From Candidatus Bathyarchaeota archaeon (GTDB taxonomy: Archaea; Thermoproteota; Bathyarchaeia; Bathyarchaeales; Bathycorpusculaceae): 64,000 nt of DNA. The notes beneath the pieces are model-generated. The model was given only the letters and a program-made list of their open reading frames with translations, did not search any database and was not told the DNA's origin. The stretch spans positions 310,001-374,000 of the forward strand of contig JAOZHW010000007.1 of assembly GCA_026014685.1 (NCBI GenBank), written 5' to 3'. Position numbers and translations under genes: made by a program. Positions 41,241 to 43,758 of the stretch are shown here, piece by piece; the first letter of the stretch is position 1; each line of letters starts with the position of its first letter.

Positions 41241-41432
41241 AACAACATCTGTAAATAATTCAGTGTTTACAAATATTTATAACTTTCCAAAAACAACAGT
41301 CCCCAAACGCCGCACCAACCAAAGCAGTAACTTTACAAACATGCAAAAACCAACCGAGGGTCTTCTTTGGCAGGTTTATCTAAACAGTTATATTCGCCCC
41401 GCCCCACCCATTTAATTGGTGAATTATTTCTA

Positions 41433-41717
41433 ATGGAATTCTCCAAAGTTTCTGGAACCAAAACCGACCACAAAGTAACCATATACGCCCTCAGCACCTG
41501 TGTCTGGTGCAAACTAACCAAACAATTCCTAAGCGACAACGGCGTCGCCTACGAATTCGTAGACGTAGACCTCCTCGACGAAACCGACAAAAGAAAAGTA
41601 CACGAAACCATCCTAACCAGAGGCGGCAGCCTAAGTTACCCAACTACAATTGTGGACGACAAAAAAATCATCACAGGCTTCCGAAAAGACCAACTCAAAG
41701 AGGCACTTGGAATTTGA
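41433..41717 (+). CDS. Glutaredoxin-like protein
   Basis: The 94-residue protein has the redox motif C23-V-W-C26 in 'VTIYALSTCVWCKLTKQFL', the cis-proline in 'LSYPTTIVDD' and the C-terminal 'ITGFRKDQLKEAL', a standard glutaredoxin/thioredoxin-like fold. I use ATG 41433. Its TGA overlaps the TTG start of the ferredoxin-thioredoxin reductase-type gene, so both are translated together and probably form a thiol-reducing pair. Confidence 0.88.
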   Translation: MEFSKVSGTKTDHKVTIYALSTCVWCKLTKQFLSDNGVAYEFVDVDLLDETDKRKVHETILTRGGSLSYPTTIVDDKKIITGFRKDQLKEALGI

Positions 41718-42289
41718 CCCCACTAACCATAGATTTTGTGCGAAAACGCGCCGAAGCCGACGCCAAAACCTACGGTTACTACCTAACACCCCAACAAGAC
41801 CTACTCCAAATGTTTCTTGAAGGATTAAAAGCCAACGAAGAAAGATACGGATATCCGGTTTGCCCTTGCAGACTTGGCACAGGCAACATAGACCTTGACC
41901 GAGACATCATCTGCCCCTGCGACTACCGCGACCCCGACGTAGCCGAATACGGCTCATGCTACTGCCGCCTATACGTCACCAAAGCAGTCTACGAAAGCCA
42001 AAACCTCCCCGAAGTTCCAGAGCGCCGTCCCCAAGAAAAAATCGCACGCGCATACGGAGTGCCAACAGCGGCGCCTCAAGTACCTCAGCAGTTCACTGTG
42101 GCACCGACACCTGAAACATCAAAACCTCAACCACCACCAAAACAGCCTGCAGTCAAAAAGAAACTGTGGTACTGCAAACAATGCGGCTACGTGGTGTACC
42201 GTGAAGACCCGCCCTACATCTGCCCGATCTGTAAGGCTAAACGGGAAATCTTTGCAGAAATAGATGCCAAAGTGGAGTTAAACGGTTAA
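41714..42289 (+). CDS. Ferredoxin-thioredoxin reductase catalytic chain fused to rubredoxin-like domain
   Basis: The N-terminal half shows the FTR cysteine pattern C50-P-C52, C67-P-C69 and C82-Y-C84 ('CPCRLG', 'CPCDYRDPD', 'CYCRLY'), which binds a 4Fe-4S cluster next to a redox disulphide. A Pro/Gln linker (about 115-145) leads to a rubredoxin-like iron site with C154-KQ-C157 and C170-PI-C173. FTR reduces thioredoxins with ferredoxin electrons; the built-in rubredoxin may be the electron feed. The TTG start overlaps the glutaredoxin stop. Confidence 0.88.
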   Translation: MTPLTIDFVRKRAEADAKTYGYYLTPQQDLLQMFLEGLKANEERYGYPVCPCRLGTGNIDLDRDIICPCDYRDPDVAEYGSCYCRLYVTKAVYESQNLPEVPERRPQEKIARAYGVPTAAPQVPQQFTVAPTPETSKPQPPPKQPAVKKKLWYCKQCGYVVYREDPPYICPICKAKREIFAEIDAKVELNG

Positions 42290-42439
42290 CTACCGTTCCA
42301 CTTGGATTTCGATTTTTTTCCAGTCTTCGCGGACGCCTTTTAGAGTTGTTACTGCACCCGTTACGGTGCCGTTGAGGATGCTTTCAACAAAGTCGTTTAG
42401 GGGAATAACTTTTCCATCTACCTTTAATTGCAAACCCAT
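42290..42439 (-). CDS. Small conserved-looking protein
   Basis: The 49-residue product ('MGLQLKVDGKVIPLNDFVES', then 'GTVTGAVTTLKGVREDWKK') is a compact alpha/beta sequence with no Cys. The GGTGA seven bases before ATG 42439 favours this start over the longer frame to 42472. It is convergent with the FTR gene (adjacent stops). The pattern recalls small archaeal proteins of unknown role. Confidence 0.6.
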   Translation of the reverse strand: MGLQLKVDGKVIPLNDFVESILNGTVTGAVTTLKGVREDWKKIEIQVER

Positions 42440-42524
42440 CAGTTTCACCTTAACAGTAAGGTAGCTTGCCAAAGCAAAAAAGCTTATCGAAAAAGCGGAC
42501 GGAAAGTTGATTTAAAAAATTTGG

Positions 42525-42677
42525 TTAAGAAAATTGGGAGTGATTGAGGTTATGCCTGAACCTGTAGGTGTGGTTGTGATTTTTCATGTTGTCTCCGGTT
42601 TTCCTTGGTTTGAGGGTGTAGTTGGCGAAGACCTCTTTGGAGTTTGCTAGGGCGTTTAGGTTTAGGGTGGTTTCCAT
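42525..42677 (-). CDS. Micro-ORF P4, 50 residues
   Basis: ATG 42677 is preceded by GGAG nine bases upstream (GGAGAAAAAACAAC). The peptide begins METTLNLNALANSKEVFANY and ends with an Asn/His-rich stretch (NHNHTYRFRHNLNH). Its GGAG overlaps the stop of the micro-ORF before it. No homologue is known to me. A signal-like ribosome site and its position in a row of small frames make it worth a test. Confidence 0.4.
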   Translation of the reverse strand: METTLNLNALANSKEVFANYTLKPRKTGDNMKNHNHTYRFRHNLNHSQFS

Positions 42678-42690
42678 GTTGTTTTTTCTC

Positions 42691-42765
42691 CTATGGGTTT
42701 AGGGCTGTTGTGCAGCCGGCCAGTTTCTCTGGCATTTTTAGGTTTTTCTTGTTTTCCACACTCAT
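42691..42765 (-). CDS. Micro-ORF P3, 24 residues
   Basis: ATG 42765, preceded by GTTGGTG and a TATA-like box (AATTATATATAG, near 42807-42818), encodes a basic peptide beginning MSVENKKNLKMPEKLAG with one Cys. Its TAG is followed at once by the ribosome site of micro-ORF P4. Such a short frame could be a leader peptide or chance. Confidence 0.35.
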   Translation of the reverse strand: MSVENKKNLKMPEKLAGCTTALNP

Positions 42766-42806
42766 GTTTTTACACCAACTTTTCGTGAAACAATATAATA
42801 GTTACA

Positions 42807-42820
42807 ATCTATATATAATT
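42807..42820 (-). promoter_or_regulatory. TATA box for the micro-ORF pair P3/P4
   Basis: On the minus strand AATTATATATAG lies about 45-50 bases before ATG 42765, a normal promoter distance. Confidence 0.4.
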
Positions 42821-42944
42821 AGTTGAGAATAATTCATAAAAGTTAAGAATACATCAGTAAAACTACAAGCATATATTTACAGAACTGCCTTAAAAAGACG
42901 CCTAAAGTAACTCCTAAAACAAACATGCCGAACTCAGCAACTTT

Positions 42945-42959
42945 TCCCAAAAGGGGGCA
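42945..42959 (-). terminator. Probable terminator hairpin after micro-ORF P1
   Basis: CCCCCTTTTGGG forms a short stem just downstream of the P1 stop (42964). The stem is short and the U-run is weak, so it is only a candidate. Confidence 0.3.
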
Positions 42960-42963
42960 AGTT

Positions 42964-43062
42964 CTAAAGTTCGGATTTCTCTGCCAAGCTTTTGGCCAAA
43001 ATTATCTCGCTAGCGAAGTAACCCACTACCAAGACGATTAAGCCTAAACCGATGGCTAACAT
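42964..43062 (-). CDS. Micro-ORF P1, single-pass membrane peptide, 32 residues
   Basis: ATG 43062 (AAGGTTGA about seven bases upstream) encodes a peptide with one strong membrane helix (MLAIGLGLIVLVVGYFASEI) and a charged tail (AKSLAEKSEL). A clear AT-rich promoter region (TATATTTATATTTAA, around 43100) precedes it. Small single-pass peptides of this size often modulate membrane complexes. It lies downstream of the RHH regulator and of a perfect palindrome. Confidence 0.45.
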   Translation of the reverse strand: MLAIGLGLIVLVVGYFASEIILAKSLAEKSEL

Positions 43063-43162
43063 AGTAATCAACCTTTATCACCAGTATTCCATATTTGTTT
43101 AATTAAATATAAATATAGTTAAGATATGTTCATAAAAATTAAGAAAAAATAAACGTATGATA

Positions 43163-43183
43163 TAGTAATTCGCGGAATTACTA
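43163..43183. promoter_or_regulatory. Perfect 21-bp palindrome (9-bp arms)
   Basis: TAGTAATTC-GCG-GAATTACTA is perfectly symmetric. It starts six bases after the RHH regulator stop (43189, minus strand) and precedes the P1 micro-ORF. Two readings fit: an operator for the RHH protein, or a transcription terminator followed by T-rich sequence. Confidence 0.6.
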
Positions 43184-43188
43184 AACAA

Positions 43189-43758
43189 TTATGCTTTAGA
43201 TGAGCACGGTTTCAAAGTAACCCGCAACTTTGTCAAGTTCTCCTTAATCTCCACTTTCACACCCATAGCCGCAAAGTACTCCTCAAGGAAGATGCGGATG
43301 AAATTCTTTGAAACCTCCGAAATTAACACCAACGTATAATCGTTAGGCGCGTTTTTTGTGAGACGATAAAGGTTACAAGCTTCCAGACGCGACAACATGT
43401 CCTCTGTTGTGTGCACTTTCCCTTTGAGTTGTTCCCAGTGGGCTTTAGCGAGTTCTCGATGTTCTATCCAGAACCGCTCCTTCTGTGGCGACGTTTCAAC
43501 TATCCGCAGAAACATAAGCCAGTGATCGACGTCTATGATGACGTGTTCGCCGCTCAGCAGCATGTCTAGGTATGAGTGAAGTTTGCGTTTGGTTTGGGGT
43601 TCTTCGAGGGTTTTGTTTTCGGCGTAGAATTTTATGGCTCGACGCATGACTTCGCTTTGTGAAACATCTGATTCAGTGCTTATTTTTTCTAGCATGTCTG
43701 CGGTGGTTTTGTCGAATGCTACGGTTATTCTTGTCGGGTTTGTCACGTTTTCAGTCAA
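43189..43758 (-). CDS. Ribbon-helix-helix regulator with C-terminal domain
   Basis: Residues 8-50 form an RHH (CopG-like) DNA-binding unit: 'PTRITVAFDKTTADMLEKIS' and 'DVSQSEVMRRAIKFYAENK'. The remaining 135 residues are mostly helical with 'HVIIDVDHWLMFLRIVETSP' and a beta-rich end ('VKVEIKENLTKLRVTLK'), a build seen in archaeal transcription regulators. Downstream on the same strand lie a perfect palindrome and a row of micro-ORFs, which suggests autoregulation and control of those short frames. Confidence 0.8.
   Translation of the reverse strand: MTENVTNPTRITVAFDKTTADMLEKISTESDVSQSEVMRRAIKFYAENKTLEEPQTKRKLHSYLDMLLSGEHVIIDVDHWLMFLRIVETSPQKERFWIEHRELAKAHWEQLKGKVHTTEDMLSRLEACNLYRLTKNAPNDYTLVLISEVSKNFIRIFLEEYFAAMGVKVEIKENLTKLRVTLKPCSSKA

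Follow-up and report, generated by a model that had tools for sequence, protein, structure and literature searches.

Does a small ribbon-helix-helix (RHH) regulator control the row of very short reading frames which lies downstream of its gene? This question is raised by positions 42525-43758 of the window, the 64,000-nucleotide stretch of Candidatus Bathyarchaeota DNA which was analysed here. A preliminary description of the locus had proposed an unrecognised small-peptide system under control of the RHH protein, with a palindrome next to the regulator gene as a possible binding site. The features concerned are the following.

43189..43743, minus strand: RHH regulator gene, 184 aa from a GTG start (the ORF listing has a TTG start at 43758)
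43163..43183, no strand assigned: inverted repeat with 9-bp arms and a GCG centre, 5 nt past the RHH stop codon, outside the conserved system
43098..43147, minus strand: promoter element 1, operator TTCTTAA-TTT-TTATGAA-N4-TCTTAA, TATA box TTTATAT at 43107-43113
42964..43071, minus strand: membrane micropeptide MITMLAIGLGLIVLVVGYFASEIILAKSLAEKSEL, 35 aa from TTG, 32 aa from ATG at 43062
42802..42851, minus strand: promoter element 2, operator TTCTTAACTTTTATGAATTATTCTCAACT, TATA box TTATATATA at about 42810-42818
42691..42765, minus strand: leader peptide of 24 aa, MSVENKKNLKMPEKLAGCTTALNP, strongly diverged, in the position taken elsewhere by the EYAEKTGxxWIESALxE leader family
42525..42677, minus strand: 50-aa frame METTLNLNALANSKEVFANYTLKPRKTG..., divergent member of the B family of membrane micropeptides, without a transmembrane helix

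The locus and its promoter element

The regulator gene is readily confirmed, as a Pfam search places PF01402 at 23.5 bits over a cut-off of 20.5 and thus an RHH domain at the N-terminus, which is followed by a C-terminal domain of about 135 amino acids. The three micro-ORFs are also borne out, all on the minus strand and with TATA boxes ahead of both groups, and all three are intact in the close relative G018, where the 50-aa frame has a single indel, of 3 nt and in frame, and keeps its stop codon. The 32-aa frame is real and encodes one hydrophobic membrane helix, but the ATG proposed as its start is not conserved in G018, whereas a TTG nine bases upstream, at 43071, is conserved and has the better-spaced GGTGA ribosome site. 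A further frame between the two units (42843-42950, minus strand) was rejected as a gene because of its intergenic-level divergence and an indel in G018. What had been described as a perfect 21-bp palindrome consists of two 9-bp arms around a nonpalindromic 3-nt centre (TAGTAATTC-GCG-GAATTACTA); it is broken in G018, the closest sister genome, and was discarded as an operator for this reason.

A different sequence recurs. When 41 genomes were searched at the DNA level with the region downstream of the RHH gene, a stretch of about 60 bp located before the 32-aa frame (43093-43153) was found again both at RHH loci and at other sites in these genomes. Aligned without gaps, 25 copies yielded the consensus TTTTCnTAATTTTTATGAACAAATCTTAACTAnnTTTATATT, in which TATGAA is invariant and the distance to the TATA box is fixed. 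The operator of about 26 bp reads TTCATAA-N3-TTATGAA-N4-TCTYAAC; its half-sites TTCATAA, TTATGAA, and TCTYAA are spaced by 10 bp, and the last of them reaches into the expected position of the BRE. The final set of 96 copies has an information content of about 50 bits, a value somewhat inflated by the score threshold. In the window the element occurs twice on the minus strand, once ahead of each micro-ORF group. The element profile R1, a covariance model without structure, finds element 1 in its own genome with an E value of 1.5e-10 and element 2 with 1.6e-5, both copies having belonged to the training set. Both are conserved in G018.

Two neighbours of the locus were observed in addition. A conserved protein of 60 amino acids (LASYLTVKVKLMGLQLKVDGKVIPLNDFVESI..., 42290-42472, minus strand) has counterparts of 49-92% identity in most sister genomes, likewise at the RHH locus, and has no Pfam match at an E value of 1. 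Adjoining the locus on the plus strand (41367-42289) are a glutaredoxin and a fusion of a ferredoxin-thioredoxin-reductase beta-chain with a rubredoxin-like part, a pair which is syntenic in several sister genomes.

Distribution and targets of the element

Among 257 genomes of the class RHH orthologues were found in 31, the element in 32, and both together in 31 (Fisher p 3e-39, a value uncorrected for phylogeny and inflated by relatedness). The sole genome with the element and without the RHH gene (G140) is 88% complete. Outside the training genus the corresponding numbers are 17, 18, and 17; within the genus all 14 genomes with the RHH gene carry the element, and none of the 18 others has a good copy. 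The core pattern searched without the TATA box gave about 68 matches in the 32 element-bearing genomes as compared to 7 in the other 225, while a reversed control pattern remained at background level in both groups. A TATA box at the one fixed distance accompanied 61 of 64 distinct core copies in element-bearing genomes and none of five in the others. Many loci were selected for containing the element; RHH loci with no element nearby do exist, for example in G003, G017, and most g30 genomes. This distribution suggests that the RHH protein very probably binds the operator-TATA element.

The genes led by the element in Bathyarchaeia comprise Amt transporters, type I glutamine synthetase (GlnA), asparagine synthase (AsnB), an amino acid permease, and AsnC-type RAM proteins, and furthermore KdpA and a CitMHS-type permease; RAM-KdpA genes follow it in G024 and KdpA in G137. 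The nifHDK genes of G017 stand behind a weak copy upstream of nifH, and a more degenerate copy is present in G045; the amt, glnA, and nif promoters have the operator in common, with degenerate copies at nifH. The NifH, NifD, and NifK homologues are located at L105:4320-8752 (G017, nifH over the cut-off) and at L205:4320-7003 (G045, assigned by sequence start and order). Amt itself occurs in 14 of 14 genomes of the genus with the RHH gene versus 4 of 18 without it. In other genera the gene order is RHH-element-KaiC-like ATPase-Amt or RHH-element-Amt, often with an Lrp gene before the RHH gene. The KaiC/RecA-like ATPase, a label which rests on a Walker motif, lies between the element and Amt in at least five genomes (L169-L174, e.g., L173:2430-3200, minus strand).

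The association is not confined to Bathyarchaeia. A collection-wide search revealed RHH homologues of 44-52% identity in ANME-1, Methanosarcinales, Methanothrix, Methanolliviera, and Hydrothermarchaeota, and 21 of 57 of these distant loci have amt, glnA, or nifH within about 3 kb, often in divergent orientation. The promoters of these distant genes carry TTTCATAAnTTTTRTGAAAAGTTCTCAAATAG or close variants, and several are recovered by the model trained on Bathyarchaeia, e.g., that of glnA at L294 with an E value of 8e-8. The genes near most of the Methanothrix homologues are not related to nitrogen. A paralogue of the ANME-1 group (L281) is divergent from a NuoE-like gene and has a good operator there (E 6e-7), which suggests that the RHH family may have targets beyond nitrogen genes. 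From the targets, and from the distant homologues in ANME-1, Methanosarcinales, and Hydrothermarchaeota which are divergent from nifH, glnA, or amt with the same operator, the RHH protein can very probably be regarded as a nitrogen regulator of archaea which differs from NrpR.

Micropeptides and leader peptides

Besides these known genes the element precedes many unannotated frames of 30-45 amino acids, in which a single hydrophobic helix is combined with a tail of basic residues. Such transmembrane micropeptides stand behind 36 of 95 elements, as compared to 1.75 in dinucleotide shuffles. They fall into families, of which B and C have the motif SLxxAFxxYxxxxRK in common; MFG peptides are encoded near Kdp at several loci, and D peptides in a conserved gene neighbourhood. 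Leader peptides precede B (EYAEKTGxxWIESALxE) and C (C-terminal YFxH[IV]), and the permease has a leader of its own (...YQKRI), the end of which usually coincides with the permease start. Leaders of 19-24 amino acids in which YFxH[IV], or a close variant of it, immediately precedes the stop were observed mostly ahead of a membrane micropeptide (L063, L101, L102, L115, L116, L191, L199, L201, L202, and L206). Pairwise dN/dS values of the micropeptides are mostly 0.1-0.4, which indicates purifying selection. At E<=1e-6 the profile of the transmembrane micropeptides (A6) finds matches in 23 of 31 genomes with the RHH gene versus 4 of 226 without it, and matches to the B-leader profile (A5) at E<1e-12 are confined to element-bearing genomes. 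In the window A5 misses the diverged 24-aa copy and A6 the peptides.

The window itself very probably encodes two transcripts of this regulon, one for a membrane micropeptide and one for a leader with a degenerate partner. The 35-aa micropeptide has a dN/dS of 0.08 towards G018 (pN 0.084, pS 0.595), and relatives of it are encoded at the corresponding position of other RHH loci. The 24-aa frame is identical to that of G018 in all nucleotides (0 synonymous changes at 15.7 sites). For the 50-aa frame 5.3 changes at 30.5 synonymous sites were counted, pS of neighbouring genes being 0.3-0.64; it can be aligned with 11 B relatives which retain the helix that is gone in the window copy. The second transcript (42525-42765) thus appears to be under constraint at the nucleotide level beyond coding, for which a dual-function RNA is one possibility. 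Its folding z-score is only -1.0, and an Rfam search gave no match at the gathering threshold; a match of LSU_trypano_mito on 42678-42919 was dismissed as a spurious hit to low-complexity sequence.

With the co-occurrence of regulator and element, micropeptides above chance level, and purifying selection on the frames, the proposal of an unrecognised small-peptide system stands and reaches well beyond this locus, and we strongly infer that it is controlled by the RHH protein. As a self-contained peptide system it could not be upheld: the peptides are one member class of a genome-wide regulon associated with nitrogen.

The regulator, its proposed role, and alternative explanations

An AlphaFold (AF2) model calculated from 28 sequences (mean pLDDT 78.7, about 80-95 in the C-terminal blocks) shows the RHH helices and a C-terminal domain of helices plus beta structure. 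A first model had a mean pLDDT of 68 and weak fold matches; with the deeper alignment the quality of the model rose, yet its fold matches remained weak. Foldseek relates the predicted C-terminal fold weakly to the V4R, H-NOX, Bet3, and YslB group (H-NOX, Bet3, and YslB at E 0.03-0.1, TM about 0.4), designed proteins scoring higher. In agreement with an N-terminal RHH domain, the best profile match in the PDB is CopG, with a weak E value of 0.005. Five residues are invariant (His67, Asp71, Asp73, His74, and His102) and would be compatible with a binding site for a ligand or a metal. The 184-aa regulator has the DNA-binding domain in common with archaeal RHH proteins (CopG/Arc/MetJ) such as CdrS and aCcr1 and differs from them by its C-terminal domain and its targets; the match to the aCcr1 model is weak with 19.6 bits (cut-off 60).

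In methanogens NrpR and NrpA act on the nif, glnA, amtB, and nrpA promoters and on nitrogen-responsive small genes (PMC9765008, PMC11456600), so that, as proposed here, nitrogen genes and small genes are controlled via sites near the promoter. NrpR, however, has NRD1_2 domains, while the present regulator belongs to the RHH proteins and its operator is unrelated. For NRD1_2 (PF01995) none of the 32 genomes of the genus scored over the cut-off, both methanogen controls being positive, and NrpR was rejected as the regulator on this ground. Small proteins with a part in nitrogen control are already known from Methanosarcina, namely sP36 (PMC10714827) and those of the small proteome (PMC11456600). 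sP36 of M. mazei, a protein of 61 amino acids with no transmembrane helix, binds AmtB1 and GlnK1 (PMC10714827). Compared by description only, it resembles the peptides in its tie to nitrogen limitation and an ammonium transporter, whereas these have 30-45 amino acids and a helix. KdpF, likewise compared by description only, is similar in its about 30 amino acids and single helix, and some peptides are encoded near Kdp; the peptides differ as many paralogues with own transcripts under one element and with the motif SLxxAFxxYxxxxRK. In the open-access literature, to which the search extended, no description of the regulator, the operator, or the peptides was found.

The explanation which we favour, with a probability of roughly 80%, is that the RHH protein regulates transcription in archaea according to nitrogen status. 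Its regulon would comprise ammonium transporters, the synthetases of glutamine and asparagine, amino acid permeases, and Kdp, as well as many micropeptides and, in some species, nif; the peptides would serve as membrane partners. A tetramer would place its RHH domains on the three half-sites, abutting BRE and TATA box, where it could either contact TBP/TFB or block the BRE. Activation when nitrogen is scarce is the most likely sign of control, with release from repression nearly as likely; the fixed spacing directly upstream of BRE and TATA box leads to the slight lean to activation and is compatible with repression. Nitrogen status might be sensed by the C-terminal domain, and the micropeptides would most likely be small membrane partners or modulators of transporters under nitrogen limitation.

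It is improbable that the element is instead bound by another factor to which the RHH gene is only linked, the best candidate being the Lrp/AsnC protein from the Amt cluster or the one beside the RHH gene. Lrp proteins often regulate nitrogen genes, and an Lrp gene adjoins the RHH gene in several genera, is near Amt in six genomes of the genus, and its product could share the site. An orthologue of the Amt-cluster Lrp (54% identity or more) is, however, present in only 6 of the 14 element genomes of the genus, all of which have the RHH gene that is absent from all 18 genomes without the element; no Lrp match is listed near the distant RHH-operator loci, and the 10-bp spacing suits RHH tetramers. 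As sole binder Lrp was rejected for its poor co-occurrence with the element. A response to potassium, osmotic, or compatible-solute status in place of nitrogen is unlikely as well. Kdp is not a classic nitrogen gene, the element stands before the RAM-KdpA and KdpA genes mentioned above, and Kdp, amino acid permease, and glutamine enzymes could together supply osmolyte pools, but among enzymes and transporters the targets that recur most often are Amt, glnA, and nifH, distant archaea included.

The two remaining alternatives concern the peptides. Antitoxins of the RHH type are common, as are toxic peptides with a single helix, which could point to a toxin-antitoxin module of an RHH antitoxin with small membrane-peptide toxins. 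Against such a module, each peptide group has a promoter of its own rather than belonging to one co-transcribed pair, the targets are genome-wide, the same element is found at Amt, GlnA, and AsnB, and the RHH protein has a large C-terminal domain and, in other lineages, is encoded next to amt, glnA, or nif. This highly improbable reading was rejected, as neither the geometry nor the targets agree with it. Doubtful, yet with more in its favour, is a second transcript which is mainly a regulatory RNA, like the nitrogen-regulated sRNA154 of Methanosarcina, with frames that are incidental or part of a dual function. The scarcity of synonymous changes in both its frames and the loss of the transmembrane helix from its peptide would agree with an RNA; the frame-preserving indel, the stops and Shine-Dalgarno sites conserved in G018, clear peptides of low dN/dS at the orthologous positions elsewhere, and the folding and Rfam results speak against it.

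A wider form of the nitrogen-regulator explanation, for which we see about even odds, is that RHH proteins with a sensor-like domain are widespread archaeal nitrogen regulators and that micropeptide and leader families of Bathyarchaeia were recruited as their membrane effectors. The RHH protein would then replace NrpR at least in this genus of Bathyarchaeia, with an operator conserved in ANME-1 and other distant groups, and dozens of unannotated single-helix micropeptides with co-encoded leaders would be effectors of nitrogen limitation.

What is known of nitrogen control in archaea comes chiefly from methanogens and concerns NrpR and NrpA. If the RHH protein is a nitrogen regulator, it would be a second one with its own operator, which can be followed from Bathyarchaeia as far as ANME-1 and other groups. 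It would account for the way in which abundant uncultured archaea control nitrogen, and its target genes could be recognised in metagenomes by a promoter code that can be read. The element points, moreover, to genes missed by ORF callers, membrane micropeptide families under purifying selection, and the micropeptides marked by it are testable candidates for modulators of transporters.
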